This document shows positions 2 through 44,700 of a stretch of 58,039 bases of DNA, in pieces. Origin of the DNA: a virus. The notes below the pieces were generated by a model. It searched no databases, was not told where the DNA came from, and worked only from the letters and a program-made list of their open reading frames with translations. The first letter of the stretch is position 1. Every line of letters starts with the position of its first letter. Both the position numbers and the translations under genes were made by a program. Location of the stretch: the IMG/VR virus record IMGVR_UViG_3300017781_000009, positions 1 through 58,039 of that record. One strand, written 5' to 3'.

Positions 2-520
2 ATTGGTAGACGACTAAGCATTGCTGACATTTGTCATTATGCTCCAGGTATGTTAAACAAGATTGGTAAAGAAGGTAAAACATCTTGGGATAGCTTTGGC
101 TATGCACTAATGATGGCACATAACGTTTATCAGCATATTGTTGCAGTACAACGTGCAAACAACTTAACTGATATTGAACTTAAAAAGACTAGACCAGATT
201 GGAGACTATGGCGTAAAGTTAAAGAAGCAGATAAGAGTGATGAGTATTCAGATTGGGTACCACGTAACATCTTATACTTCGATCGCTTTGTTGAAGAACT
301 GTTCGAGCAGCCAACTAAAGAGGCAGCGTTCGCAATGATTAAAGAAGGCGACAGTTTCCTTAAAAACTTAGAAGGTGCAAGACTACGTGGAGGAGTTACT
401 AATATTTCAAACTCGTTATTCGTTGAAGTAGACGATGACGGTAATGAAGAAACTCCTTGGACTGACGATAGAGAAGATACAGAACTAGATAAATTAGAAA
501 GTGAGCTAACGGAGGCTTAA
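2..520 (+). CDS. Partial protein, possibly the C-terminal part of a TGT/DpdA-like transglycosylase
   Basis: The reading frame is open from the first bases of the window, so the 5' part lies outside and only about 172 residues are visible. The segment around 'ALMMAHNVYQHIVAVQRA' resembles the 'HNL..Y..L...R.A' helix near the C-terminus of tRNA-guanine transglycosylases and their DNA-acting phage relatives (DpdA). The tail after that is acidic. The next gene starts directly after the stop with a GGAGG ribosome site. The 7-deazaguanine genes downstream make a transglycosylase reading attractive, but the catalytic core is not in view. This is inference from a short resemblance, and an unrelated phage protein is equally possible. 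Confidence 0.35.
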   Translation: MGRRLSIADICHYAPGMLNKIGKEGKTSWDSFGYALMMAHNVYQHIVAVQRANNLTDIELKKTRPDWRLWRKVKEADKSDEYSDWVPRNILYFDRFVEELFEQPTKEAAFAMIKEGDSFLKNLEGARLRGGVTNISNSLFVEVDDDGNEETPWTDDREDTELDKLESELTEA

Positions 521-1039
521 ATGAAAAGATCATATAAACAAGGTACTGTTAATGATGCAATTTTCTTTGTAGGTGTTGAAGTAGAACATACTCCTGCATA
601 TGGTAGAAAAACATTGTTCGTAACAGGTGTTCAGAACGTTGACGAAATATCTCAACAATATAATGACAATGAGTGTGAACATATATTCTTTGGTGCTAAT
701 CACAGTTTTCAACCTACAAACAGTAAAGACTATGATGACTGGGAAGCCATGATTGAGCCTTTTTTAGATGATGAAATTTGTTGCACTTTGGACATTCCAA
801 TTGCAAAAGCAGAAGAAATGCTAGAAAGTTCATTAATTGAAAGTGATAGTTTTATTCCACAACTACGTGTACCAATTCCGTACATTGAACAGTTTGGTTA
901 CAATGCTACACTTAAGATTGATGATAAAGATTTTAAAGCAACAAATCCGGGTGTTTGGACACATAGTTTACATGAACTAATGGATCGTTCAAAGTTTACA
1001 CCTTGGCGTGAATATGAAAATGACGACATAGTAGATTAA
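521..1039 (+). CDS. Conserved phage protein of unknown function, 172 aa
   Basis: The ATG follows the upstream stop codon directly and has GGAGG six bases upstream, so this start is firm. The protein is soluble and acidic with no signal peptide or membrane segment. Recognisable blocks are 'FFVGVEVEHTPAYG' near the N-terminus, 'HIFFGANHSF' in the middle and 'NATLKIDDKDF' followed by 'NPGVWTH' near the end. I recall proteins of this kind in marine T4-like phages but know no assigned activity. Its position between a possible transglycosylase and a QueD-like gene suggests a role tied to 7-deazaguanine metabolism, which is guilt by association only. Confidence 0.75.
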   Translation: MKRSYKQGTVNDAIFFVGVEVEHTPAYGRKTLFVTGVQNVDEISQQYNDNECEHIFFGANHSFQPTNSKDYDDWEAMIEPFLDDEICCTLDIPIAKAEEMLESSLIESDSFIPQLRVPIPYIEQFGYNATLKIDDKDFKATNPGVWTHSLHELMDRSKFTPWREYENDDIVD

Positions 1040-1042
1040 TGA

Positions 1043-1071
1043 TTGACATTAGAAACAAAAGGTGCTACAAT
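1043..1071 (+). promoter_or_regulatory. Sigma70-type promoter candidate overlapping the queD-like start
   Basis: TTGACA at 1043-1048 is followed after 17 bases by TACAAT at 1066-1071, matching the bacterial consensus at 11 of 12 positions. The -10 box overlaps the ATG at 1070, so a transcript starting about 7 bases later would lack that start codon and would need the in-frame ATG at 1097 or 1109. It is probably an early promoter read by host RNA polymerase, but it may be chance. Confidence 0.4.
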
Positions 1072-1531
1072 GGAACAAGAGCGTTATGCAACATATATGC
1101 AACGAAGAATGAGAGAAGAAGATATGGAACAAGGTAAAGAAAACGCATTGCAACATGCAAAGCGAATGATTTGGGTAACCTTTACAAAAGAAGGTATCCA
1201 TAAGTATCCTGCGGCACTAGATGATCCTAGTCTTGCAACAGGAGATGAATATGATGTGAGTTTCTTAGGTTATCCACATAGACACATATTCCACTTTAAG
1301 GTAGGTATCGCTGTAACACACAATGACAGAGATATTGAATTTATTCAGTTTAAACGTTGGATGGAGAAACTATACGCAGAAAAAACATTAGAACTTGACT
1401 ATAAGTCCTGTGAGATGATGTCCGATGATTTGTGGCATCAAATTACAAACAAATATCCTGGACGTGAAGTCCACATCGATGTCTCCGAAGACGGAGAGAA
1501 CGGTGCCCACATTGAGTATGCTAGTTATTAA
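1070..1531 (+). CDS. queD: QueD-like / 6-pyruvoyl-tetrahydropterin synthase-fold protein
   Basis: QueD converts dihydroneopterin triphosphate to 6-carboxytetrahydropterin, the step between FolE and QueE in preQ0 synthesis. The T-fold pattern can be followed here: 'FTKEGIHKY' at the place of the first zinc histidine (FSAAH), 'PHRHIFHFKV' for the HGHNYxxxV pair, 'DIEFIQFK' for the DFxxLK element, 'SCEMMSDDL' for TxENLA, and 'VSEDGENGAHIEY' for the terminal ETxxxxAxY strand. The usual catalytic Cys before HGH is not obvious, so activity may differ. The start at 1070 is chosen because AAAAGG lies 7 bases upstream; a TTG at 1043 is an alternative. FolE and QueE nearby support the call. Confidence 0.55.
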   Translation: MEQERYATYMQRRMREEDMEQGKENALQHAKRMIWVTFTKEGIHKYPAALDDPSLATGDEYDVSFLGYPHRHIFHFKVGIAVTHNDRDIEFIQFKRWMEKLYAEKTLELDYKSCEMMSDDLWHQITNKYPGREVHIDVSEDGENGAHIEYASY

Positions 1532-1543
1532 AGGAGACCTAAA

Positions 1544-1744
1544 ATGGGTTACTGGCAGGACCATCCTGAGGTGGTCAAGGTTTTTGATGATCTTGACCTA
1601 TATAAAGACTTTTGCCGACACAACGGTTTTAAGTTTGATGAAAAAGATCTCTACAAAAATGCAAGTCGTTCTTGGAGAGCTTTTGAGAATCGAAACAATT
1701 ATAAGAAAACGTTTCGTAAAAAATTTAACAAACGGAGAAACTAG
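1544..1744 (+). CDS. Small basic hypothetical protein, 66 aa
   Basis: This short gene has a strong AGGAG ribosome site 7 bases before its ATG and is followed directly by the next gene (TAG then ATG). The N-terminal half is rich in Asp, Tyr and Phe, and the last third is strongly basic ('KKTFRKKFNKRR'), which suggests nucleic-acid contact. I do not recognise the family. A second frame across the same bases (1425-1748) is a shadow without a comparable ribosome site. Confidence 0.7.
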   Translation: MGYWQDHPEVVKVFDDLDLYKDFCRHNGFKFDEKDLYKNASRSWRAFENRNNYKKTFRKKFNKRRN

Positions 1745-2785
1745 ATGAAAGTATGGCTTGTTGATTTAGAAGCAGTTGAAACTCGTTACACCAAGCAGTG
1801 GAAAACTGAATTTCCTAAACTGTTGAAAGCTCACGGCCATGACGTTCATATAGTTAACGGAGGAGATACGCCTCAGGCTACAACACCTGGGGCGTTTCTT
1901 AACTTCGGCGGTACTAACGTTTATAAAAGTAAACAACTAGAGCAAATTGCAGAAGCATTCTGTAACGGAGAGGTTAAAGACGGTGATTATTTTCTTTATA
2001 CTGATGCTTGGAATCCTACAGTTATTCAATTACGCTATATGGCAGAGCTATTGGGTATTAACATTCGTATTGGTGGTATGTGGCATGCTGGTAGTTATGA
2101 TCCGCAAGACTTTTTAGGTAGACTAATAGGTGATAAGCCTTGGGTTAGGAATGCAGAACGTAGTATGTTTGAATGTTATGATCATAATTATTTTGCAACA
2201 GAGTTTCATATAGATATGTTCTTTCAATCATTTCCAGAACTAGATAGATCTAAAGTTGTACAAACTGGTTGGCCATTTCATTATATGGATAGTACATTAA
2301 CTATGTACAAAGGAATGCCAAAGCGTGACTTAATTTTATTCCCTCATAGGATTGCTCCTGAAAAGCAAGTTGAAATATTCCGTGATCTTGCTGATCAACT
2401 TCCACAATATGAATGGGTAGTTTGTCAAGAACGTGAACTATCAAAGAACGAATATCACAACTTACTAGGAGAAGCAAAACTTGTGTTTAGTGCTAACTTG
2501 CAAGAAACACTAGGTATTAGTTGGTATGAAGGTGCTCTTGTTGGAGCATTGCCTATGGTACCAGACAGATTAAGTTATACTGAAATGGGTTTGCTGCCTT
2601 TCAAATATCCTAGTAATTGGACAATAGATTGGAAAACCTATATTTCCAATAGAGAGGCTGTGAAAGAACGTGTAATTGACTATATGGAAAATTACAAAAG
2701 TTTTCTTCCTAGCCTAAATAAACAAGTAGAAACACTGAATGAAAAATATTTCAGTTGCAATGATCTACTAAAGGTGCTAAAATAA
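1745..2785 (+). CDS. GT-B fold glycosyltransferase (GT4-like)
   Basis: This 346-residue protein fits a two-domain GT-B enzyme. The C-terminal half has 'LILFPHRIAPEKQ', the typical start of the donor-binding domain, and 'SANLQETLGISWYEGALVGALP', where two glutamates seven residues apart form the E-x7-E signature of retaining GT4-type enzymes. The N-terminus 'MKVWLVDLEAVETRYTKQW' begins like an acceptor domain. It would move a sugar from a nucleotide donor to an unknown acceptor. It sits between the QueD-like gene and folE, so the acceptor could be modified DNA, but a surface glycan or metabolite is as likely. GGAG upstream supports the start. Confidence 0.75.
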   Translation: MKVWLVDLEAVETRYTKQWKTEFPKLLKAHGHDVHIVNGGDTPQATTPGAFLNFGGTNVYKSKQLEQIAEAFCNGEVKDGDYFLYTDAWNPTVIQLRYMAELLGINIRIGGMWHAGSYDPQDFLGRLIGDKPWVRNAERSMFECYDHNYFATEFHIDMFFQSFPELDRSKVVQTGWPFHYMDSTLTMYKGMPKRDLILFPHRIAPEKQVEIFRDLADQLPQYEWVVCQERELSKNEYHNLLGEAKLVFSANLQETLGISWYEGALVGALPMVPDRLSYTEMGLLPFKYPSNWTIDWKTYISNREAVKERVIDYMENYKSFLPSLNKQVETLNEKYFSCNDLLKVLK

Positions 2786-2829: not shown

Positions 2830-3513
2830 TTGGAAATAAGTAAAAAGATTAAAGCAAGATTGAAAGAAGCCGGCAAACGGTTTTGGGCAGGAGACAATAT
2901 CTCCGACTTCATCGAAGAAGGTGAGAAGCAACAACTAGTAGATGAGTTGACTTCTAAATTTGAAGAAGTATTACAGGGTCTTGTTATAGATACTGAAAAC
3001 GATCCTAACAGTAACGGCACAGGCAAACGTCTTGCTAAAATGTATATTAACGAACTAATGGCAGGTAGGTACGAACCAATTCCTGCTGCAACTGCATTTC
3101 CAAATGACAGCGCAACACCTTATGAAGGTATGTTAGTTGTTCGTTCAGAACTTACAAGCATGTGTTCACATCATCATCAGATTGTTAGAGGTGTAGCATA
3201 CATTGGTATTATTGCTAGTGAGAAACTAATTGGACTAAGCAAGTATACAAGAATTGCACAATGGTGTGCTATGCGTGGAACACTTCAAGAAGAACTTGCA
3301 AATGACATTACCCGTGAAATACAAAAAGCAACAGGTGCAAAACACTTAGGTGTCTACATTCAAGCCACACACGGTTGTGTAGAGAACAGAGGTGTAAAAG
3401 CACATAGTAGTTTAACACAAACAACTGTTCTTAAAGGTGCGTTCAAAGATGATCCAGCAACTAAGAAAGAGTTTATGGATAATATTAAATTACAACAACA
3501 ACACGCATGTTAG
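2830..3513 (+). CDS. folE: GTP cyclohydrolase I (FolE), TTG start
   Basis: FolE opens GTP to dihydroneopterin triphosphate, the entry step of folate and 7-deazaguanine synthesis. The zinc-binding segment 'MCSHHHQIV' gives Cys112 and His115, and 'ATHGCVENRG' gives Cys183, matching the Cys, His, Cys ligands of the family. 'LIGLSKYTRIAQWCAMR' and 'QEELANDI' are standard FolE core elements. Length (227 aa) is normal. The start is TTG, supported by CGGAG six bases upstream and by the absence of an ATG before residue 70. In this phage context it more likely feeds the deazaguanine route with QueD-like and QueE than folate. Confidence 0.93.
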   Translation: MEISKKIKARLKEAGKRFWAGDNISDFIEEGEKQQLVDELTSKFEEVLQGLVIDTENDPNSNGTGKRLAKMYINELMAGRYEPIPAATAFPNDSATPYEGMLVVRSELTSMCSHHHQIVRGVAYIGIIASEKLIGLSKYTRIAQWCAMRGTLQEELANDITREIQKATGAKHLGVYIQATHGCVENRGVKAHSSLTQTTVLKGAFKDDPATKKEFMDNIKLQQQHAC

Positions 3514-4132: not shown

Positions 4133-4544
4133 TTTTTTAGATTGGATCGGAAGAAAGCGTACTATCTATGATAGAACTGGTAGTATTCCGTATTTGGTTA
4201 GATACTATTTGTTTTTGAAGGACAGAAAGAACTTTCCTTTTAACATCACATTACATAAAGTATTAGTAAGTGATGAACCTACACTACATGATCATCCATG
4301 GAGTTGGGGAGCATTAATTCTAAAAGGCGGCTATTGGGAACATACACCACAAGGTAAGTTTTGGCGTGGTCCTGGTAGTATACGTTTTAGAACAGCAAAA
4401 GATTTACATTGGTTAGAACTTGCAAAAGATAAAGATGGGAATGAGATTCCTTGTTGGAGTATTTTTTATATGGGTAAGAAAGCACAACAATGGGGTTTTG
4501 TTAAGAATGGTAAGTGGATACATAACGAGGAATACTTAAAATAA
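4122..4544 (+). CDS. Cupin-fold protein
   Basis: This is a single-domain 140-residue protein. 'EPTLHDHPWSWGALILKGGYWEH' fits cupin motif 1 (histidines followed by a glycine turn), and 'GPGSIRFRTAKDLHWLEL' fits motif 2, where 'DLHWL' supplies the last metal-ligand histidine. Cupins of this size bind a metal and act as isomerases, dioxygenases or small-molecule sensors; the substrate cannot be told. The start at 4122 was chosen because AAGG lies upstream and the frame before it is occupied by the 67-residue gene. Its stop overlaps the next start (TAATG). Confidence 0.7.
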   Translation: MLLNFLDWIGRKRTIYDRTGSIPYLVRYYLFLKDRKNFPFNITLHKVLVSDEPTLHDHPWSWGALILKGGYWEHTPQGKFWRGPGSIRFRTAKDLHWLELAKDKDGNEIPCWSIFYMGKKAQQWGFVKNGKWIHNEEYLK

Positions 4545-5077
4545 TGATTAAGAAGCACTATTATAGTTGGCAAGATGTTGAAAAAATGTGTGTAAGCATA
4601 GTCAATCAGATGTACAAAAGTAACTGGAAGCCTAATTATATTGTAGGAATAACAAGAGGTGGAAATGTTCCTGCTACTATTATTAGTAACATGACTGGTA
4701 TACGTTGTGAGGCATTAAAAGTAAGTTTGCGTGATGATAGTCGAGATAGCGAAAGCAACTGTTGGATGGCAGAAGATGCATTTGGTTATGGAGATGGTAA
4801 AAGTTATCCTAAAGCACGTAAAAATATTCTTATTATAGATGACATCAATGATACTGGTGCTACGTTTAACTGGATTATGGAAGATTGGAAAGCAGGTTGT
4901 TTACCTAATAGCGAAGCATGGCAAGACATTTGGCAAGAAAATGTTCGCTTTGCATCACTTACTGAAAATCTAGCAAGTGATTTTGACAAGGTTGATTACT
5001 ACTGTCATGAAGTTAATAAAGCTGAGGAAGATGTTTGGTTAGTTTATCCTTGGGAAAATGTTGCTGACTATGCGTGA
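4544..5077 (+). CDS. Phosphoribosyltransferase
   Basis: This 177-residue type I PRTase shows the PRPP loop 'NILIIDDINDTGAT' (about residues 94-107) and the early 'IVGITRGGNVPA' loop that binds pyrophosphate. These enzymes join a base to PRPP to make a nucleotide or run the reverse. The hypoxanthine/xanthine-guanine branch has this size and motif order. In this setting it might salvage purines or handle a deazaguanine base, which is inference. The last five codons overlap the next reading frame. Confidence 0.8.
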   Translation: MIKKHYYSWQDVEKMCVSIVNQMYKSNWKPNYIVGITRGGNVPATIISNMTGIRCEALKVSLRDDSRDSESNCWMAEDAFGYGDGKSYPKARKNILIIDDINDTGATFNWIMEDWKAGCLPNSEAWQDIWQENVRFASLTENLASDFDKVDYYCHEVNKAEEDVWLVYPWENVADYA

Positions 5078-5462
5078 CGATCTAATGGTTCAACAACAAG
5101 TTGACAACGTATGGCAGCATATGGTTGGAGTTATTTGTTTGAACCAAGTAAACAGACTTCAAACAAAACCTGTTCTTACAATATTGTTTAACAAGTATCC
5201 TACTGCACATAGTCTATTGCGTAGTTGTACTATTCCTATGTTAGAAGAACTATTAGAGCCATTAGGTATGCAACGTGTAAGAGCTAAAAGAATTTATAAG
5301 ATGAGTATCCAGATTGAGAACTGGGATGGTGTTGATGCTACCGACCTTTATGGCATTGGTAAATATGGGTCCGATAGTTATAATATATTTTACCTAAATA
5401 ATATACCAACCGGTGTTCAGGATAAAGAATTAAAACGATATATTGCAGAGGAGTTAGTATGA
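5070..5462 (+). CDS. HhH-GPD DNA glycosylase, MBD4-like
   Basis: The order 'GVICLNQVNR', 'FNKYPTAHSLL', 'LLEPLGMQRVRAKRI' and 'LYGIGKYGSDSYNIF' follows the glycosylase domain of the MBD4 family closely. The last block is the helix-hairpin-helix plus the catalytic Asp (about residue 102, in 'GSDSY'; MBD4 has GNDSY). The lysine used by bifunctional EndoIII enzymes is absent, so a monofunctional enzyme that cuts out a mispaired T, U or damaged base is expected. No iron-sulfur Cys cluster follows, and at 130 aa it is almost only the catalytic domain. ATGs at 5058, 5070 and 5085 are all possible; none has a clear ribosome site. Confidence 0.75.
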   Translation: MRDDLMVQQQVDNVWQHMVGVICLNQVNRLQTKPVLTILFNKYPTAHSLLRSCTIPMLEELLEPLGMQRVRAKRIYKMSIQIENWDGVDATDLYGIGKYGSDSYNIFYLNNIPTGVQDKELKRYIAEELV

Positions 5463-5683
5463 GCTATGATAATAAATGTACAGTTACATGTACTGATAAC
5501 GGTAAAGTTGCTGAAGCAGAAGTTGACCGAATTGAGCCTAAAGATTTCTTAAACATCTTTATGGCGAGCAATAAAATACATATGAAATGGAATGGTAGAG
5601 TATTTGTAGGAAACGCATTTGGTTTTGAATTTACTACACCTGGACCAAAACAATTTAACAATGCAATTAGAAGAGGCTTTTAA
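5459..5683 (+). CDS. Small hypothetical protein, 74 aa
   Basis: The start sits in an ATGA overlap with the glycosylase gene and has GAGGAG upstream; the stop overlaps the next ATG (TAATG). The sequence alternates polar and hydrophobic residues ('CTVTCTDNGKVAEAEVDRI', 'KWNGRVFVGNAFGFEF') and so is probably a small beta-rich domain. No family is recognised. Confidence 0.65.
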   Translation: MSYDNKCTVTCTDNGKVAEAEVDRIEPKDFLNIFMASNKIHMKWNGRVFVGNAFGFEFTTPGPKQFNNAIRRGF

Positions 5684-6057
5684 TGAAGGCTGACACTTTA
5701 CAATTAGCAATAACAGAACAAAGAGCACCGTGGACAGACGTTGAGATTGATACTCGTGAGTTCACTGTTTTTCGTGATAAGTATCCTGTAACCGAAGGAC
5801 ATTTATTAATTGTACCCAAAGAAGCAACACAAGAAAACATTTTAAAGTGTTTTAATTTTGCTGTTACTATGGGTTATGATAATGTAGCAAGTGAAAAAAC
5901 TAACATCACAGGCTACAACATAGGTTTGAATGTAGGTGAAAGTGCAGGACAAACAGTCATGTATCCACATGTACATTTAATATTCCGTCGTAATGGGGAC
6001 ATGGAAGATCCGAAAGGAGGCGTCAGAGGCGTCATCCCATCAAAGCAAAAATATTAA
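5683..6057 (+). CDS. HIT-family nucleotide-binding protein
   Basis: HIT proteins hydrolyse or transfer nucleotidyl groups such as dinucleoside polyphosphates and AMP conjugates. The fold is indicated by 'DKYPVTEGHLLIVPK' in the N-terminal half and 'GYNIGLNVGESAGQTVMYPHVHLIFRR' before the end; 'GDMEDPKGGVRGVIP' is the typical tail of the bacterial HIT branch. The usual signature His-x-His-x-His here reads Tyr-x-His-x-His: the first histidine is Tyr, while the middle, nucleophilic His is kept. Length (124 aa) is normal. Activity may be altered rather than lost. Confidence 0.8.
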   Translation: MKADTLQLAITEQRAPWTDVEIDTREFTVFRDKYPVTEGHLLIVPKEATQENILKCFNFAVTMGYDNVASEKTNITGYNIGLNVGESAGQTVMYPHVHLIFRRNGDMEDPKGGVRGVIPSKQKY

Positions 6058-6273: not shown

Positions 6274-6455
6274 TGAGTTGGCAAGTAAAAATTGAAGAAG
6301 ATCCGTACACGAAAGAGTTAACGTTACCGATTCCAACGGATCTTCTTAACCAAATGGGTTGGGATATTGGTGATGATCTCGTTTGGGAAGAGAGTATGCC
6401 AGGCACTTCTTATACTCTGAAAAAGGTTGACAAACCTGGTGAAAAGAAGGTATAA
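6273..6455 (+). CDS. AbrB/MazE-like small protein, GTG start
   Basis: This 60-residue protein starts with GTG directly at the previous stop. 'ELTLPIPTDLLNQMGWDIGDDLVWEE' matches the swapped-hairpin AbrB/MazE pattern 'lplPxelLxxlGwxxGDxlxw', which forms dimers that bind DNA or act as antitoxins. No toxin gene is adjacent, so a small transcription regulator is more likely than an antitoxin. The 3' end of the gene carries the -35 and most of the -10 box of the promoter in front of queE. Confidence 0.6.
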   Translation: MSWQVKIEEDPYTKELTLPIPTDLLNQMGWDIGDDLVWEESMPGTSYTLKKVDKPGEKKV

Positions 6456-6456
6456 T
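6427..6456 (+). promoter_or_regulatory. Full-consensus sigma70 promoter before queE
   Basis: TTGACA at 6427-6432 and TATAAT at 6451-6456 are exact consensus boxes, 18 bases apart. They lie at the end of the AbrB-like gene. The expected transcription start, about 6-8 bases after the -10 box, falls on or next to the queE ATG at 6463, so the message could be leaderless. A purine-rich GAAAAGAAGG before the -10 box could act as ribosome site only on read-through transcripts. Confidence 0.65.
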
Positions 6457-6462
6457 AGTAAT

Positions 6463-7404
6463 ATGAATGATAAAATACAGACTCTTGCACAGCACGACTT
6501 TAGTAAAACAGTAGAAAAAAAGTTTTACTATTCAGAGATATTTTATAGTATTCAAGGTGAAGGGCATTACACAGGTGTTCCGACAGCTTGGATTAGATTC
6601 TTCTTGTGCAATTTACAATGTAATGGGTTTGGTCAATTAGATCCAACTAATCCAGATACACATGAATTGCCTTTTGAAGACTTTGATGTTGACAGTGTAA
6701 AACGTGTTGAAGACTTGCCTGTATGGGATAAAGGCTGTGATAGCAGTTATACATGGGCTAAGAAATTTAAGAAACTAATGGGTCAAGAAACTCCTACTGC
6801 TATGGCAAATAAGATTGTCGACTGTATTAAGAATGATAGCAATCCAGAAGGTAAGTTTTTACATCCTGTAAGTAAACAAAATCAACACTTGTGTTTTACA
6901 GGTGGAGAACCTTTGATGGTTACAGGACAACAGGCAGTGGTAGGTATATATAACGAATTAAAAAAGCAGGGCAATTTGCCTGGTAGCATGACATTTGAAA
7001 CTAACGGTACACAAAAACTTAGAGAACCATTCTTAGAATGGGCTAAGAGCATTGACACAGAAATATTTTTCAGTTGTAGTCCCAAACTATTTACTGTATC
7101 AGGTGAAAAACCTGAAAAGGCCATTAAGCCTGAGATAGTTGCTGAATACTTACAAGCATCTACAAAAGGACAACTTAAATTTGTTGTAGGTCCATTACAA
7201 CGTGAATGGGATGAAATGGAAGAGACAGTTGAAAAATTTAGAAGTGCTGGTGTTGATTGGCCAGTATGGATTATGCCAACAGGAGCAAGAGAAGAAGAAC
7301 AAACCGCAACTGCTGGTTCAGTTGCACAAAAGGCATTCCAGAGAGGATACAATGTAGCGGCAAGAGTACATGTATACTTGTTTGGTAATGCTATTGGAAC
7401 TTAG
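6463..7404 (+). CDS. queE: 7-carboxy-7-deazaguanine synthase (QueE), radical SAM, with a long insert in the cluster motif
   Basis: QueE contracts 6-carboxytetrahydropterin to 7-carboxy-7-deazaguanine using an iron-sulfur cluster and S-adenosylmethionine. 'FYSIQGEGHYTGVPTAWIRF' is the family N-terminus, and 'CFTGGEPLM' holds the SAM-binding GGEP motif (147-150). The cluster motif begins Cys49-x3-Cys53, but the third Cys is Cys92 in 'GCDSSYTW', so about 36 extra residues sit where CX3CX2C would close. The enzyme is longer (313 aa) than bacterial QueE. The start at 6463 directly follows a consensus promoter. A queC gene, needed to go on to preQ0, is not in the window. Confidence 0.9.
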   Translation: MNDKIQTLAQHDFSKTVEKKFYYSEIFYSIQGEGHYTGVPTAWIRFFLCNLQCNGFGQLDPTNPDTHELPFEDFDVDSVKRVEDLPVWDKGCDSSYTWAKKFKKLMGQETPTAMANKIVDCIKNDSNPEGKFLHPVSKQNQHLCFTGGEPLMVTGQQAVVGIYNELKKQGNLPGSMTFETNGTQKLREPFLEWAKSIDTEIFFSCSPKLFTVSGEKPEKAIKPEIVAEYLQASTKGQLKFVVGPLQREWDEMEETVEKFRSAGVDWPVWIMPTGAREEEQTATAGSVAQKAFQRGYNVAARVHVYLFGNAIGT

Positions 7405-11775: not shown

Positions 11776-11808
11776 GGGAGTTAGTAGAAATACTAACTCT
11801 CTTTTTTT
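11776..11808 (+). terminator. Rho-independent terminator of the plus-strand arm
   Basis: The arms GAGTTAGTA (11778-11786) and TACTAACTC (11791-11799) pair perfectly around a GAAA tetraloop. Two more pairs (one G-T, one G-C) extend the base, and seven T residues follow at 11802-11808. It ends the rightward genes 14 bases after the last stop codon. On the other strand the hairpin is not followed by a T run, so it works one way only. Confidence 0.9.
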
Positions 11809-12985
11809 ATCTTGTATTTCCGTAATGAATAACTTCGTGTTTATCTGAAGTGTAAGAACGCCAAGGATCAACTACAACGGAGTCGTCTGATAGTTCTACA
11901 TAAAGCTCTGGATGAGATAAAAGAACACATGCTCTAAAAGGTCCTGGATCAGAACCATATACTAACGGATCAACTTGCATAGGATTAAAGCCGTACTCTG
12001 TACAATACTGTGCAACTAGTAAAGCATAACTTCCATCGATATAAGGCACGCCTGGTTTGTAAGCAATACCGTTAATAAGAATAGGAAGTTCTTTTTCTTT
12101 TGCAATATCACAAAGTTTCTGTGCAACATTTTGCGCCTGCACTTCTCTAGCATTCATTACTGCATCAAAAATATCATAACCAAGATCTAGTTTCTTTGCC
12201 ATATACCTAAGTGCAATATTATCTCTTGGGTGACAACTGCCGCCATCTCCCATTCCTGCTTTCATGTAACTTGGTCCCATTATACGTTGTGTACTTTCTG
12301 CAAGTGCTGTAGTAACTACATCAACGTTTATATTACCTTGCTTTTCAGCAACGTCTTGTATCATATTTACAAGTCCAATCTTTGTACTAATAAATGTATT
12401 ATAGAATACTTTGATACATTCGCATTCGTCCCAAGTACCAATTACATATCTTGGATCATTCTCCATGCATGTATCATAAAAATCTCTAAGCTCTTTAGCA
12501 TCGCCGGTTTCAGTACCATCTTCTGTACCAATCATAACCATTTCAGGATTGACCATGTCCCAAGCAACTGTACCCATAGCAATTAAATAAGGATTATAAA
12601 CAAAACGTGTGTTAGTTATTAAAGGTACAAACTCACGTCTTACTGTTCCAGGTAAAACTGTACTAATAAGAACAAGCATTTGTTTTTTATTCATATACTT
12701 GTTTGCTTCTTGTAAACAATCAATAACAATATCGTATTGAAAGTCTTTAGGCTCTAAATGTGCTGTAGGTGCTTTGCCGTCATAGTTTGGATCATGTGGA
12801 GTAGGCACTGCAACAAATACAATATCTGCTTCTGATGCTACGTCTTTAATAGTATCTTCTACAATAACATAGTCGCTATTCAATGATTTATCTACATCAT
12901 ATCCTAATACAGCATGTCCTTTTTTAGCAATTTCTTCTGCGCAGGGCATACCCAATTTGCCAAGTCCAATAAATCCAATTTTCAT
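11807..12985 (-). CDS. ugd: UDP-glucose/GDP-mannose dehydrogenase family enzyme
   Basis: The enzyme oxidises a nucleotide sugar to its uronic acid with two NAD+. The N-terminus 'KIGFIGLGKLG' is the GxGxxG NAD-binding loop, 'ISTVLPGT' is the central-domain loop, and 'GDGGSCHPRDN' holds the catalytic Cys (about residue 251) with His-Pro-Arg where most members have Leu-Pro-Lys. The C-terminal third has 'ILINGIAYKPGVPYIDGSYAL', the typical second nucleotide domain. Length 392 aa is normal. The ATG at 12985 has AAGGA upstream; a TTG sits three bases earlier. It would supply a uronic-acid sugar to the glycosyltransferases upstream in the same arm. Which sugar is used cannot be told. Confidence 0.88.
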   Translation of the reverse strand: MKIGFIGLGKLGMPCAEEIAKKGHAVLGYDVDKSLNSDYVIVEDTIKDVASEADIVFVAVPTPHDPNYDGKAPTAHLEPKDFQYDIVIDCLQEANKYMNKKQMLVLISTVLPGTVRREFVPLITNTRFVYNPYLIAMGTVAWDMVNPEMVMIGTEDGTETGDAKELRDFYDTCMENDPRYVIGTWDECECIKVFYNTFISTKIGLVNMIQDVAEKQGNINVDVVTTALAESTQRIMGPSYMKAGMGDGGSCHPRDNIALRYMAKKLDLGYDIFDAVMNAREVQAQNVAQKLCDIAKEKELPILINGIAYKPGVPYIDGSYALLVAQYCTEYGFNPMQVDPLVYGSDPGPFRACVLLSHPELYVELSDDSVVVDPWRSYTSDKHEVIHYGNTR

Positions 12986-13013
12986 CAATCTGTCCTTTTC
13001 GAATAGTTATTAC

Positions 13014-35740: not shown

Positions 35741-35748
35741 TATTTATT
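35741..35748 (-). promoter_or_regulatory. Late promoter candidate before the 213-aa virion gene
   Basis: AATAAATA followed by C, on the minus strand, lies 25 bases before the ATG at 35715 and overlaps the last codons of the giant gene. It matches the late consensus at seven of eight bases. Confidence 0.5.
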
Positions 35749-38700
35749 CAGGTAACTTCGATGTATTGGCAGCAATGAACTTACTAATTGGAGTACTGTT
35801 TTTAAGCAGTGTAACGCCTGATGTAGCAGTATTTTGGCCTCTATCGTACCATACTTGTCCTTGTTGTTTTATAATACTAATTCGTGTACCTGCAGCAGGC
35901 ACATTTGTTAGTCTAATATATGCTGACGATCCGTCAACACTAAATTCAGCTTCAACCTTCTCATCGCCCGCCGGGCTAGTTGAACCTATAGTTTCATTAT
36001 ACTGATCTATATATGTTTTGCGTAATCGCTTACCGCCAACAAATACTTCAATCGAGTCACATCTTCCATAAATTGCTGGAATAGTACCTTGATACCAATC
36101 ACTAACAGTACTTAGCTTAGGAACAAAAGGTAGTGGTCCAATTAACTGACTACTTCCATCACTAACAAAATCTGTTCTTGATTGTGTATCTTTGTACGGA
36201 ATAGTTTGATCCGTACTCATATCAACCACATATTCTCCTACTGGACTTAAAGTCTTGATTGCTGTACCTTGTGTACCTCTTCTCAAATTGCTTAGTACAT
36301 TACCGCTCTTGATCATGTATTCAATCTTTTCACCGTTGATTTCAATAATGCCTGGTACATTGTTACTTGCAACAGGTTCAAACAGTGAAGAAGCATCTTT
36401 AAGTGTAATAGTTTCGTCATAGTAAGTTAATTCTTTTGCTAGTACTAGACTATCAGTGATAGCATATCTAGTGTATCTATTAATGTTTAGCATGTCTTTG
36501 CTAACTTGATAAGCACTTGGTAGGGCAAATATATTAGAACCAAACGCTATAATTTCAAAAACATCTGTTTCTGTATTAGCCCCTTCAATATATACAACAC
36601 CTTTGTTAACATCTAGTCTATAATCAACGTCTTGTATTAGTTTTTCTTTGTTTCTATAAACCCAAGTGTAACTTACACCCAATGGTTTAAACGCTATAGG
36701 ATAAAATGCTTTGCCGCCTGTGTATTGATCGCTAACAATATCCATTGACGGATATTCACTAAACCAAGTAACATCAATTGTGTCACCTAATGTTAGTGCT
36801 GTTGAATCGTTGATAACAATATTATTACCAATCACAGAGTATTCTGCTCCTAAGTTGTTTTCAATCTTGATAACATCACCGACCGTCAAATTTTCCGCAG
36901 TAACCTCAAGCTCTTTTGTTGTACCGTTGTAAACATAGTCTGTAATAAATGTTTTTAGCTCGTTATTAATATAAACTTTAATATTGTTTGGAACAATAGA
37001 ACCTGCTGATGCAATAGGGTCAACACCTAGTACATACTTTTTAGTTACACCATCGTAAACACTGTAAACTGTGTCAACACTTTTTAATTTTTTGTTGTTT
37101 ACTTCAACAATAGTTGATGCTAATGCACTATCTCTACTTAACTGTACAAATGTATCTAAGTCATAGCTTTTAGTGCTACCGTCATATGTAAACTCTTGTT
37201 GGTTAACTCTAATTAGAGATTGTAATGAACTATCAACATCTGTTGCTGCACTAAATGCAACTATTCTAATTACTGCTAGTCTATCAGGCTTTATACCAAA
37301 CTGTACAAGTGTTCTGTTTGGTGTGTCGGGCAATAAGTCTGTACTGTCAATAAATCCTGTATCAGATTGTACACCGTTAACTGATACAAATATATTTGAA
37401 GTGTCAGCGTAATTTGCATTAGTTAAGAATAATGTAGTATCACCGTCTGCAATAAATTCTTGATAATCAAGTATTGACACGCCGCCTAATCCTATTGAAA
37501 CTATTTCGATTTTAGAATTTTCTACTGGAACACTTGCAAATTCAATAGTACTATTAGTAACACTAACTGTGTATGTTGCTGGTTCAACTTTTAATCCGTC
37601 AACATATACTATTACTGACTTATTCTCAATAATTTTTTGTCCTATAGGATATGTTAATGTTGATCCGTCACCTATTCTAACATTAGACTTAATTGGAGCA
37701 CCTGTTGAATCTTGATTTGAATGGAATACTTTAATACTTAAACTGTCTAAAACCTGTCCAGGTACGTTTTCTTCTGTTGCAGGTACTTGATCTGGGCTAT
37801 TATATTCACCACCGTCTATTGAAATGTCTTCTGCATTTGTTCCTGTTGCTGTTGCATAAGCACCATCCATTGCTGATAAAGTACCACCTGATAATTTTGT
37901 ATCTAATAAGTTATTATCATTAATAGTTACAGCGCCATCGCTTTCTGCAGGACGGAAAATTAAGATATCTCCTGGACTTGTTGAAACATATTCGCCTACT
38001 TCTACAACTTTTGTGCTGCCGTCACCTATAAATGTTGGCATCTGTGCATGAGGATTAGTTGCTATTGAACTATCCCAAGCATCTGTATAATTAGGATCGT
38101 CAATTCTAAGTGTTGGTGGAGCATCAACGCCTTCTTCAGTTTGTAAATTAGAAATATCGTCAGGTACAACAATACCTGCACGTTTTAAGTAAATGTTAAT
38201 AACTTGTCCGTTTGTAGGAACATAAGGAAGTGTTACACCAATTGTACTTCCATCTGCAACATAGTAGTAATCTGCTGCTGCTTCGACACTATCCCAACTG
38301 TCTGTAAACCAAGGAAGTGCGTCCCAGCCACCTGTAACATCAAATGTAGTACCTTGTACTTGAACACCACCAAAGTCAATACCTGTCATTAATTGATCAA
38401 GCTCTTTACCTATCATACCTGATGAAGGATTGTAGTATTTTGTAATTCTGCTTACACTATCTAATATTTCATCATTCTTTTCATACGTAATTGTAATATT
38501 ATCGTCTTTGGCAGGCGGAATTACAAATGTAATTTTACCTCTTAACTGTTTGTACACATCTGTTTCTAAAGTAAACAGTGATATAGTGTATTCGTTATTA
38601 AGAACTACTTGACCATTATTAATAATTGATATTTTTGCTTTATCTCTAGTTGGTGGATATGTTAAATTAAACACCGCAGTTGATCCGTTAGCAGTAAATG

Positions 38701-41700
38701 ACTCAGTTTGTGTAAAGTTATTGTAGATACCTGTTTTAGAAAGCCTATCAAACTTCATATTAACGCTCATAGAACGTGTTTTACCGTTACCTAGCACTGC
38801 AACTGCTCTTGCAACTGACGGTGATGTTCCATTACCGCCTACAAGCGAAACTGTTGGAGTTGATGTGTAACCTGTGCCATGTTCAGTTAGCGCAATTCCT
38901 GTAACTTTACCGTTTGAAACATATGCTTTTGCTTTTGCTCCAGACCCATTGCCGCCTGTAATTAATACTTTAGGTGCTTCTGTATAATCTGCACCTTTAC
39001 TTGCAATACTAATTTCTACAATTTGGTATCCTTTATTGTCATTCCAAAATTTGTAAGGATATGTTGCTAGTATATCGTCATTGCTTTCGACAGGAATAAT
39101 TTTACCCTTCTCTTCTGAGTAGTAAGGAGGTAAATCAAAGTCTGCTATTGCAGAATCTGCAATATCTAAGTTATCATACTTACTAATGTACTCCCTTACA
39201 GTTGTACTATAAGGTTTGACTTCGTTAATATAATCTAAGTAACTCTCAAGACTGTCGTTTTTGTAATTAGTTTTCTGTTTTAATGTGCCAACGTTGTGTG
39301 TTGCATTTAAGAAACTAGTTTTAAATGCCCAGTCAACGTATGTTTGTTCTTTGAAAACATATCTAATAGATGTAAAGAATAAGTTATTCCACTCAACTGC
39401 ATAATTACCAATCAAGATATCTTCTTTCAATGCTTTTAAAATAAATCTAAGTTCGTTTGAAACTTCTTTATCGTAAAAATCAATGTCATATGAATCTACA
39501 TTATCAAATCCAACACCACTTAGTGTTGTATCATACAACGATGTTGAAAATTGTATAGTTCCTAACTCTCTACCAATTAATTCGTAATTGTTCATAGCAG
39601 CGCCATCGAGATCAGTAATTTTCTTAAACACTGCCCAACCGCCTGCACCGTATTCTTTGATTCTAATCAAGTCACCAATTTCAACATCTATAGTTGGTTC
39701 TTGGTACACACTAATAATTTCTTGAATGATCCTTGAAGTAGGACCAAAGTCATTGTCCCACCAGTCGGCATATGACCAGTATCTTGGTGTGTTGTACGCT
39801 TGTGATCTACTTCTGTACCAAGACTTTCTTACATCGTCCCAAGCATAAATGCTCCAGAAGTCATTAGCTGTTGAATCGCTTTCAACAAGTACACTAAACT
39901 GTCTTGGCTTAGTAGCAATGTAAGTATATAGTTTACCTTTATTAGTAATTGTTACACTGTTAACTCTGCCTTGGTTATCAATTGTAGTAACTGCTTCTGC
40001 ACCTGTTCCGTCACCTTCGAATTCAATAGTAGGAGGTATTTTATATCCAAAACCTGGACTTAATATATCAATAGAGTTAACTTCATTGTCAACTATATTT
40101 GCACGTAATGAACACTGCTTGGTTCTAGATGTACCAACTTCAAGTAACTCAGTGTAAGTATCAACTGTTGTATCATATAAGTTTAATAAAGAACTTGGCT
40201 TTATATCAACAGAGTTTAATGTTGTAAGATCTAAAGAATCAGCAAATGATTCTTTGTGCATAATTGCATTAATGTTTGTAATTAAAGTTTTTAATAAAGT
40301 CTTTCTATCAACAAACATACTTTGTCTTGGTCTATAACTAACACCATATCGTTGTTTTTCTGGCAATTTAGGATCAGGTATTCTATTACCTTGTACATCA
40401 TAACCAATTAAACTATCAATCCATTTGTTTTCTAATGAAGTTGTTGGTAGACTATCTGCAACTCCTTCAGTAAGAAGTTGATACTCGTTATGTACTTGAT
40501 TTTGATTTTCTTGTTGTGTATAGTATTCAATATTAAGAACTGCTGAATCGTCTGCTACCGTTGCTTTATAATTAAACAACAAGAACTTATCTTTATCAAT
40601 AAATGCTGCGTAAGTTTGTCCTAACGCTGACGGGTCACTAATTAAGTTGAACACATCTGCTGCTGATATACTTCTATCTGGCATGCCTTCTGGTACAGTA
40701 ACTTTATTTTTTACCCAATAGTAATAATAAATTTCTGTTTGTTCTCCTGTATTAGGATTAAATTCTGCTTTCACACTATAAGCACTATCGTCTGCATACA
40801 AAGGTTGTCCTGATATGCCTAGTGGTAACCCCTCGTTAGTATCTGCAACCAATGCCCACTCTGACGGTAGTAATTTAGACTGTACCCATTCATAAATATC
40901 AATTGATGCGCCAGGAGCCAATGCTCCCCAAGCACCTACTCTGTATGATACTTCACCTTGCTCATAGTCAAACCATTTAGCAGTTGAAATATCCCACCAT
41001 AATTTACCTACGTTTTTAGTCTTCCAACAAATTGAATCGTCGACAACTGCGCCTTCTGCTGTTCCTGTTGTATAAATTGCAGGATCATAAGGCACTTTGT
41101 ATGAAAGCTCTCTTTCTGCTTCTGCTAACAGTTTCATTTTAGCTGGATCAAAGATTTCTAAATCAAGAATTTTTGTATCATCTTCTGTATCGTATAATGA
41201 AATACGTTTAAACTTATCAATGTCAACTGTCTGTGGTTGTGAGCCAATAATGTTTAGTGAATTTTGTCCTTCAGTTTTTTCAAATAATCTAACTGTACCT
41301 GTTTTAGGTCCATCGAATGCAATGTCAACTCCGTGCGGTGCAGGTGATATAAAGTTGGGTGATCCAACTACTATAGCATTTCTTGTAGCATATAAACTAA
41401 ATCCAAATGATTCATTTAAAGAAAGTGCTTCGTCAATTTTCTCTGATAAGAAGAACTTCTCATTTGTACCCTTTTTCTCAAATACATATACTGCCCCAGC
41501 AAACCCATCAAAGTCTCTAAACGTAGTTCTATTACTATCGTATGATGTTTGTGAAGCATCAAATCTAGTTTGCAATACATACGGAGAGTTAGTTGCACCA
41601 ATTGCAATTATTTCTGTGCCGCTTGATATTGAAATATCTTGGCCAAACATTTCATTTGGATAATCTGAATAACTTGTTAATTTTTGTTTTAGTCTATAAG

Positions 41701-44700
41701 CAAATTCTGTTGAGTCAGTATCAAACTTGAATACATAAGCACTACCTTGATTCTGGAAGTTCTTGTCTGCTAATGGACTAGTTACAACTAATGTATTACC
41801 TGAATAGTCTAAGCCAATTGCATAACCAAACTTATCACCTGAACTAATTACTTCGCTTGGATCAAGATCACTTAGGTATGGTAAAGCATCTGCGTTTATT
41901 TGTTGTAGTAATCTATAAACTCCAGCAGTGTTCTTTTTGTAAATGTAAACTTTACCTGAAGCAACACTTGTACTGTCACCCACGTTAACCCAAGGTTCGC
42001 CAGCATCTGGTGCTTCGTTGTAACTTCTGATTGTACTATCTGCACCTACTGCACTTGGTCCTAGATTTTGTAACTGATGATACCCGCCCTGATACTTAAC
42101 TGTATCTCCTTGTGCATATTCGTAGTTAGGTCTCCAGTGGCCTTTATAGTTTGTAAAATATTGTCCATCACTGTTAGGTGCGCCTACTGCTAGTACTGTT
42201 CCGTCATAGTTCATTGCTATAGAAGTACCAAAGCGATCATCTACTTTAATTAATTCAGTAAGTTGTTGATCATCAAGTAGTCCAGCATCAAGTGTTGAGC
42301 CATCATCGTTAGTTGCAATTGACATTGGAAGCGAAGCACCTGTTGTTACTTCGTCTAGTAGTACCCAATCATTTGATCCAGTTGTTAATGAACTTCCGTC
42401 TGCAACATTGTCAACTAATGCTTTCCACATATCACCATTTGAAAATACAATTGAATCCTTAGGATAAAAAGTAGAATCATCAGCAGCATAAATGCCTTTG
42501 TAATTTTTATTGTAGTCTAAGTGCCAGCCATCTGTTGTATCATATGTGTAAAGATACACACGACCTTTTGCATCTTGTGAGCCAGGTGCTGATACTGACA
42601 TGTAATAAGGTCCTGTACTACTTGCTTGACTAACTGCAATCTTCTGACCAAATCTTTCGTTGTCATAAGTTCTAGGACTTACTTGTATGTCATGTAAGTT
42701 CCACTGTTGAGACTGGTATTGGTAAATGAATATTACCCCTGTTTCAAAACCGCCTGTATTTGAACCATCTTGTTCAGCTTCAATTTTTTGTACTTCAACC
42801 CATTCGTTGCTGTATACATCAATAGTACTACCATCACCATTAATATTATCTTGTGCTTTGTAAAGTCTTCCTGAGAATAAAACAATATCGTTGACTATGT
42901 AGTTTGCGTTTACATCAAACAGCCCTTTGTATCTACTAGGAATACCACTTGCTGTGTGTGCGCCAACCATTAACCAATTGCTATCTGGGCTTAGTGCTAG
43001 TTCAAGACCAAACGATCCTGTAACATCTGTTGTTAACCATGTTGGTGGTTCAAGCAATTGCTTAGACGATAGACCAGTTGCACCTTGAATATAAACTCCT
43101 ACCCTTGCTACATCAGGTATACCAACTATAACTTGTTTAAGTGTATCACTGTAAACTGTTTTTGTACCAACACTTGTTGGATCGATGATACCAAAGTCAA
43201 TAATTTTCTTACCTGTAAACTGTTTTTTCTTTTCAACAACTTCCCAACGTGAATTGACATTTGAATCTACAAATAGTTTCGCCCCGTCACTTAATAGTGC
43301 TAACTTTTCTGCATCAATATCATCGTAAGTAGTAAAACGTGATTCTGTTAGTAACATAGGATAAGCACCTGTGCTAGGCTCAAATCCTTGATCTGCATCA
43401 TACTTTTCTGTATGCTGTACTGTAACTGTATTAGTTGTTGCTGCTTTTACTTTCCAAAACTGATTTAAGCCTGCTATTGTTTTGATACCAAATATATCAT
43501 CAACTTTCAGCAAGTGTGTTTTTTCAAAAGTAAAAATTACTTCGTTATCATCATTACTTTCTAAGTTTGTAATTTTTAAATCGTATACTGTATTTGCTCT
43601 AAGAACAGTCCATGAAGGTCCATCGAATGTAACCCATATATGATTATTGTCTTGTACTGATGCAATTGCAAGATTTAATATTTCATCTCTGTTTGTAACT
43701 GTAAAGTCTGTTTGGCCTACTGCTACATACCCTGGTGTTAACATAGGCTTAGAATCATAACTAACAGGATTAATTGCTGTTGTAAATGGCGTAGGACCAA
43801 ATTCAAAGTTAGTAGAATCAACTCTATAGTATCTATCAACTTTATCTTGTGCTGATGCTTCAACTAATACAGGTTGAGGATTTAATTTAAATTTGTCAGT
43901 GTCTAGTCTAATTTCAAGTCTTTCTGATTGATCAACGCCGCCTATCTGTCCTAGTCTGAAACCCCATTCCTCATTTAAGTCAACAGCAGCAGTAGAAGTA
44001 TTATCACCTAGTTTTGTAAATAATTTGGTAATTGCATTAGGTGTACCTTTCTCTCTAATGAATCCTTGATACAATTTAAATTGTGTTGTTGGATCTTCGG
44101 ATAAGTTTTCTAAATATGTTCTGCTTTGATATCCTACAGTATGTCTTGCAAGATCTCTTTGGCTTTTTCCTAAGCCTTCAGATGCTACATCAAAGTAATC
44201 TTCAATTTGATTAATTCTGTAATCAAAGTTAGGAATAAGTTGCTTTTCAGGTTCTGAATCTAGTTGTGTCCAATTAGCATCATTAAACTCTTCACCACTA
44301 GTATGGTTACCTCTTGCAGTATATTTGTATGCTCTATAAGATACAATGTCGCCTAACTTATAATCGTAGTAAGGTGTCCAGGTTGCAAATGATACATTAT
44401 CAAATAAGAAACCTGGGCTAGTATAATCACCGTCCCAATCTGTTGTTCTAAATCCTTGAGCTTTAATTCTTTCTTGTCTATAACCTGTTGCTTTATCAAA
44501 GATAGTATCATTGAAAACTGTTTTATCGTCAAACACAACAACGTGTTCTTTTAAAACATAATTTAGTTTTAGTAAGTAGATACCTTCAGTTGTATTTGTT
44601 GTACTAATCGATATGTTTTGAAAGTCTCTCGAAACGTTTATAAACTTAGGATCTATTGCTGAACCGTCTGCTTTTAAAACACTGTAGTCATAAAAACTAT

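Follow-up and report, generated by a model that had tools for sequence, protein, structure and literature searches.

The phage 7-deazaguanine enzymes DpdL, DpdM and DpdN were reportedly described by Cui et al. in 2023, and DpdL is said to be a decarboxylase of 7-carboxy-7-deazaguanine (CDG) in 7-deazaguanine phages. The available part of PMC12783734 cites Cui et al. 2023. In the available sections of Hutinet et al. 2019 (PMC6884629), the phage 7-deazaguanine modifications go via preQ0 (QueC). The tubercidin pathway, according to the excerpt of PMC6112128, reaches CDG through homologues of FolE, QueD and QueE, and CDG is a branch point with tailoring beyond it.

Here, we analyzed a window of 58,039 nucleotides (IMG/VR record IMGVR_UViG_3300017781_000009), in which the gene at 521-1039, the target, is probably an undescribed extra step of a guanine-modification pathway. 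The locus shares FolE, QueE and a TGT-like DpdA with the phage system of PMC6884629, as the available sections present it. Canonical QueD (PF01242) was found in 5 of 16 records, including those of phages ACP17 and PAC2 and not including the window, which is a fragment. The locus differs from that system in the added QueD paralogue (QPAR), glycosyltransferase (GT) and target, and in QueC (PF06508), for which no match was found in the window (a fragment), ACP17 or PAC2; across the 16 records, QueC matched partially in four, and one passed the cut-off. The CDG branch point with later tailoring would be common to this locus and the tubercidin pathway. However, the latter uses a phosphoribosyltransferase and a UbiD-type decarboxylase, and the excerpt of PMC6112128 mentions neither a transglycosylase nor a target-like protein.

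The Target Gene and Its Family

The target is located on the plus strand, begins with ATG and encodes 172 amino acids. A sequence-only reading had described a 172-residue protein with a firm start, and the ORF at 521-1039 matches this exactly: positions 511-515 read GGAGG, a Shine-Dalgarno-like sequence, and the start codon ATG at 521 abuts the upstream stop codon (TAA, 518-520). The blocks that had been called distinctive, GVEVEHTPAYG (residues 18-28) and HIFFGANHSF (residues 54-63), both fall within conserved blocks of the family. Invariant residues among 91 aligned rows include G18, E20, E22, T31, L32, F33, K132, D135, N142 and W146, and D134 is conserved at 99%. The motifs G-x-E-x-E and K-[ILV]-D-D were each found in 167 of 168 homologues. 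The target is a real, conserved gene.

The window protein had no significant match to Pfam, PHROG or NCBIfam, in accord with the earlier statement that it has no known activity, and a PHROG scan of 91 homologues gave one weak match only (E = 0.0068). A HisZ-like Pfam match (E = 0.22) and a match to phrog_4734 (E = 0.16) were taken as noise, and an amidoligase identity, based on the GxExE motif, was without Pfam support. Some homologues (L103, L105, L120, L154, L157) have long C-terminal tails that look low-complexity by eye. These tails are not domain-like, and NCBIfam gave nothing notable for two of them; fusion was rejected as a functional clue.

Relatives of the target were found by tblastn in 13 phage records. 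Eleven of these are PA5oct-like Pseudomonas jumbo phages with about 43% identity to the target (recorded host PAO1), and two are ACP17 records with 32%. At least 586 IMG/VR stretches in one scan and at least 583 in another encode relatives; the best 80 of each scan were examined, so the loci were sampled in order of similarity. When the 84,980 species genomes of GTDB were scanned with a pattern, two matches were obtained, both on MAG contigs of 3.0-3.5 kb. Because relatives are abundant in IMG/VR and this GTDB scan gave only the two small contigs, the family is essentially viral. On a 3-kb contig of a Flectobacillus MAG (L171), the target C-terminus follows directly on an N-terminus that looks HemA-like by eye. 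This is probably an assembly chimera, and L171 was therefore left out of the length-filtered neighborhood counts.

Genes around the Target in the Window

The target had been placed between a possible transglycosylase and a QueD-like gene, and this arrangement was recovered. Upstream, the window edge truncates a TGT/DpdA-like gene, of which the 3' part is included (2-520, plus strand). Its full-length homologue has 514 amino acids (L001:4883-6424) and carries the motifs DSGGYQ (by eye), VLQG, GG and FDCASP. A profile of 18 TGTs (17 from bacterial loci and that of E. coli) was the best of 57 non-self profiles for this protein (hhalign, single P = 5.8 × 10−4, probability 29%), and the TGT catalytic motifs QG, GG and FDC.SP are in register. 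The DpdA-like protein also has a weak blastp match to a 424-aa protein of ACP17, which itself matches NCBIfam tgt_general under the family cut-off (E = 4.6 × 10−7). A PDB sequence search with the DpdA-like and QPAR profiles gave nothing credible.

Downstream is QPAR (1043-1531, plus strand; phrog_17812), a T-fold paralogue of QueD as judged by hhalign against phage QueD (P = 3.2 × 10−5, probability 73%). QPAR is distinct from canonical QueD, both being encoded by ACP17, and may be related to DpdL. It is followed by a 66-aa ORF (1544-1744, plus strand), and comparable small ORFs recur in this position by eye. The GT (1745-2785, plus strand), a conserved member of the module, is a putative family-4-type glycosyltransferase. 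It shares 40% identity with an ACP17 protein that itself matches Glycos_transf_1 weakly, and the GT of L244 matches the same family with E = 2.1 × 10−10; by these matches the GT is a putative Glycos_transf_1 member, weak to clear depending on the sequence. FolE, GTP cyclohydrolase I, follows at 2830-3513 (plus strand; PF01227, E = 1.7 × 10−37). QueE, the radical SAM 7-carboxy-7-deazaguanine synthase, is located at 6427-7404 (plus strand), with CX3C and then a distant Cys; it was assigned by alignment and by NCBIfam QueE models (E down to 9.2 × 10−10, under cut-off).

The interval from FolE to QueE contains other genes. Positions 5058-5462 encode a protein with a weak HhH-GPD base-excision-type match, and 5683-6057 encode an HIT protein. 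A phosphoribosyltransferase gene (4544-5077, plus strand; PF00156, E = 1.5 × 10−9) is possibly associated with the module and recurs near or beside queE (L175:12330-12764, L234:2447-2908, L245:10428-10931); the assignment was made by Pfam in the window and PAC2, by annotation in BUCT-ZZ01 and by eye in L245. Such an enzyme could recycle guanine freed by DpdA.

Linkage of the Target with the Pathway Genes

ORFs were called in 172 sources (171 loci and the window) and searched with iterated profiles. The target was found in 168 of them; the other four (L083-L086) had been taken from other searches. The recurring module consists of DpdA-like gene, target, QPAR, GT, FolE and QueE. The 514-aa DpdA-like type was present in 161 of the 168 target sources, QPAR in 162 and GT in 153. 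The absences of these three genes lie within 2.4 kb of a sequence end or in L171, except in L082, L087 and L096, where another DpdA type replaces the 514-aa type, and in PAC2 (L081). When only loci with enough sequence were counted, a DpdA/TGT-like gene was found in 145 of 146 (2.5 kb upstream); downstream, 111 of 112 loci contained QPAR and 111 of 112 the GT. The sole exception in all three counts is PAC2, whose genome contains these genes at other positions. With 8.5 kb downstream, FolE was found in 67 of 80 loci, QueE in 72 and either of them in 79. All 479 DpdA, QPAR and GT matches share the strand of the target. A check of co-occurrence with queE and dpdA had been proposed, and the DpdA-like and QueE counts bear the association out; homologues common in phages without deazaguanine genes did not appear.

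Clustering at 70% identity reduces the target loci to 42 groups, so they are redundant, and related phages mostly share one gene order. Thus, the independent evidence for linkage comes from the reordered cases: ACP17 (QueD-FolE-target-DpdA-GT-QPAR-QueE), L096, five loci with the order DpdA-GT-target-QPAR, and PAC2, in which the target lies about 27-28 kb away from DpdA, GT and QPAR. Polymerase- and clamp-like genes (by eye; families with 138 and 141 members) are located in the same block at most loci, as they would be if the target stood outside the pathway and were kept there by the synteny of related phages. However, the linkage persists through all of these rearrangements and in remote relatives of the target, and we consider this explanation very improbable.

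The strong linkage with DpdA, the position downstream of DpdA in most loci and the start codon that touches the DpdA stop in the window might also be explained if the target were a non-catalytic partner of DpdA, that is, a base-loading or DNA-recognition subunit. However, the target accompanies two divergent DpdA types (514-aa and 424-aa), and linkage that crosses both types suggests a tie to the chemistry and not to a single DpdA. The PAC2 target is distant from DpdA, 30 of 84 DpdA-bearing GT loci had no detected target, and the remote relatives in phage X1 and L301 adjoin the GT and not DpdA. A DpdA partner is accordingly held to be quite unlikely, and a tailoring step is preferred to a subunit because of the two DpdA types and the remote relatives beside the GT.

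The Target as an Optional Member

The neighborhood was also viewed from the GT and from QPAR. With the GT of Sinorhizobium phage Phosso as query, 72 loci were obtained. Among the 49 with more than 3.5 kb on both sides, DpdA-like genes were found in 48, FolE in 47, QPAR in 47 and QueE in 43, and the target or an X1-type protein in 39. A scan with the QPAR alignment, of which the best 80 of at least 598 were kept, gave 53 loci with room on both sides, containing DpdA-like genes (51), GT (50), FolE (49), QueE (24) and the target (15). In the pooled scans, which overlap in part and are thus not fully independent, a target-type protein was present in 54 of 85 GT loci with 4 kb on both sides, and none was found in 31. 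One locus (L362) has the target and DpdA while the GT is absent from its flank. We further inspected 14 named records: phage 9g and 13 others selected because they encode a relative of the target, QPAR, GT or DpdA. QPAR was found in 11, GT in six and the target in two.

The core is therefore composed of DpdA, QPAR, GT and FolE, often with QueE nearby; the target is an optional addition. Its absence from 31 of the 85 GT loci means that it is dispensable or replaced. Because it is frequent and yet optional, it more likely serves in tailoring or as an accessory than in a core step. The sequence-only reading had suggested an undescribed step or accessory of the pathway. The pathway association holds from all three starting points (target, GT and QPAR). 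The target may act as a catalytic step of the pathway.

Without QueC, for which the window, ACP17 and PAC2 gave no match, the pathway would end at CDG, and the target might be the decarboxylase that converts CDG to 7-deazaguanine before DpdA acts, using E20, E22, K132, D134 and D135. K132 and D135 are invariant and D134 nearly so, and a QueE-like pocket, if the models are right, would bind CDG. However, the target was not detected in the 31 GT loci above or in 38 of the 53 QPAR loci, phage phiST has FolE, QueD, QueE and QPAR and no target was found in it, and QPAR would fit a general step after CDG better. Decarboxylation by the target seems rather improbable, and tailoring is preferred to it because so many QPAR, DpdA and GT loci have no detected target.

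Possible remote relatives were found beside the GT. In phage X1 and L244, an ORF of 136-143 aa with "GIEVEG" is located directly upstream of the GT, and the target profile was its best match of 63 (single-comparison P = 9.3 × 10−4 with a two-sequence profile; about 0.06 after correction, marginal). A 159-aa ORF occupies the same slot next to the GT in L301, and the target profile was again the best, of 64 (single P = 1.3 × 10−3, one sequence, 89 columns; about 0.08 after correction, marginal). Neither match is significant alone after correction; the gene slot and the collinearity add weight to both as putative remote relatives.

Fold and Likeness to QueE

The AlphaFold model of the window target (pLDDT 94.4, pTM 0.89) has alternating alpha and beta elements, and that of the ACP17-type target of L096 had pLDDT 89.8 and pTM 0.84. 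In Foldseek searches, neither model had a match in the PDB at E ≤ 0.001, and the single match in BFVD at this level was ACP17's own protein. A PDB sequence search with the target profile gave nothing up to E = 10.

VIA-align gave matches with Z below 8 throughout, a range in which such arrangements often arise by chance. Among the matches of the window model, STAS/RsbS domains ranked first (Z 6.8 over 90 residues), B. subtilis QueE (5th5) was at rank 5 (Z 6.2, 3.4 Å, 129 residues) and QueE 5tgs at rank 7 (Z 6.1, 127 residues). The L096 model matched E. coli QueE (6nhl) best (Z 6.5, 3.7 Å, 127 residues), followed by QueE 5th5 (Z 6.3, 132 residues), and B. multivorans QueE (4njg) was at rank 8 (Z 5.6, 117 residues). 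The STAS domains score as high as QueE, but over only about 80-90 residues. The QueE matches were favored because they are collinear over nearly the whole chain and recur for the QueE of three species and for two models, in a fitting pathway context; the alignments behind the two models are largely the same, so the models are not independent. A comparison with T-fold and QueF-type enzymes had also been proposed, and here the outcome was divided: QueE was among the matches, whereas neither T-fold nor QueF proteins occurred among the 50 structural matches listed. Sequence models agree with the latter, since the target had no match to the PTPS family (PF01242) or to QueF models (Pfam, NCBIfam) and the comparison with the phage QueD profile gave only P = 0.038 over 16 columns. 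QueC, which would supply the preQ0 reduced by the QueF nitrile reductase, was likewise not found in the window, a fragment. On these grounds, a T-fold or QueF identity was set aside as unlikely; a list of 50 matches does not prove that such folds are missing.

At the sequence level, the bacterial QueE profile ranked first of 57 non-self profiles for the target, with a low probability. This alignment is collinear (target 37-132 with QueE 69-153; single P = 0.0053, probability 6.8%) and places K132 on a QueE Lys. The target-QueE profile probabilities ranged from 1.6 to 6.8%, and the signal is lost after correction for 57 profiles. Phage QueE alone gave a different register, and for this reason sequence homology between target and QueE is not claimed. 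By eye, G-x-E-x-E of the target stands where QueE has QGEG. The differences are also clear: the target has about 170 residues and QueE 210-325, no QueE or radical SAM model matched the target (Pfam, NCBIfam), and the window encodes a genuine QueE besides it. Phage QueE with a QGEG-type motif has CX3C after it in 81 of 81 cases, whereas neither CX3CX2C nor CX3C occurred in any of 168 target homologues. Without the iron-sulfur cysteines, the target would not be a radical enzyme. In the model, 7 of 15 invariant polar residues are at the C-terminal ends of strands (expected 3.7, P = 0.038 in a post-hoc test), a distribution that would lean somewhat toward that of an alpha/beta active site. The models lend support, though weak, to a fold derived from QueE.

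It may be explained instead that this likeness is only a common alpha/beta arrangement and that the target acts on the sugar side, together with the GT and nucleotide-sugar enzymes. A target-type protein adjoins the GT in X1, L244 and L301, an oxidoreductase pair resembling GFO and ADH proteins is located directly upstream of the PAC2 target, and PIG-L-like genes are neighbors in some phages. However, the QueE matches recur in two models over nearly the whole chain, GT loci without target exist, and the target matches no sugar-enzyme family in Pfam or NCBIfam. We regard a purely sugar-side role as unlikely.

Proposed Role

We tentatively favor the target as a cluster-less, QueE-derived protein that binds the 7-deazaguanine base or its sugar conjugate in a QueC-less, GT-containing DpdA pathway, a reading we hold plausible and somewhat short of probable. 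FolE, then QueD of host or phage, and then QueE would produce CDG; QPAR and GT would act on CDG or a product of it; and the DpdA-like transglycosylase would place the base into DNA. The target may bind the 7-deazaguanine base, either free or in DNA, or its sugar conjugate, through a pocket inherited from QueE, and may perform or guide an optional tailoring step tied to the sugar-transfer branch. Phage glycosyltransferases can also modify virion or cell-surface sugars, and the 7-deazaguanine base is a putative acceptor of the GT.

A broader proposal is that many phages, including the PA5oct-like ones, replace guanine with a glycosylated 7-deazaguanine without QueC, reusing downstream a copy of QueD as QPAR and a de-radicalized copy of QueE as the target; we consider it possible and doubtful. 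A widespread QueC-less branch with a dedicated GT, if true, would mean that phage DNA can carry guanine decorated with sugar, and this would affect restriction, Cas targeting and sequencing. The glucosylated cytosine of T4 DNA is a parallel case. Among the titles listed in our literature search, none named a glycosylated 7-deazaguanine in DNA. Conversion of a radical-SAM scaffold into a cluster-less protein that stands next to its parent enzyme would, if true, be an unusual form of pathway growth by duplication.

Other Genes near the Module

The GFO/ADH pair was found in 20 of 85 GT loci, but just 5 of the 168 target loci first collected contain it. It consists of a 290-aa GFO/IDH/MocA-like protein (by eye) and a second protein of 305 aa (ADH_N match in the PAC2 member), and is located at L081:10218-11986, L278:5575-7346 and L316:6220-7991. 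As 16 of the 20 GT loci with the pair also have the target, the pair was rejected as a replacement for it.

LmbE/PIG-L-type ORFs lie beside the GT in PhiXhv-15 (E = 3.5 × 10−7), L244 (E only 0.13) and X1 (by eye, no Pfam match). PhiXhv-15 lacks both QPAR and target, and its GT is only distant. These neighbors give a hint, no more, of an N-acetylated sugar. In L244 (7141-8001), QPAR is fused to an N-terminal domain resembling LmbE/PIG-L, the Pfam E-value being only 0.13.

Two further ORFs recur in the 27 GT loci that have neither a target-type protein nor the GFO/ADH pair. A cytidylyltransferase-like ORF (by eye; L349:12218-12709 and relatives) was found in 20 of them, and a GMP-reductase/IMPDH-like ORF (by eye; L334:10131-11234 and relatives) lies near the GT in seven. 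According to the excerpt of PMC6112128, the tubercidin pathway also uses a GMP reductase-type enzyme.

Farther along the window, a UDP-glucose/GDP-mannose dehydrogenase-like gene is located at 11807-12988 on the minus strand, and beyond it further unplaced ORFs, some of them sugar-enzyme-like by eye, extend to about 23.7 kb. The minus strand also carries a 4593-aa ORF (35744-49525) and a 1183-aa ORF (49525-53076) that has a long poly-serine stretch at its end.
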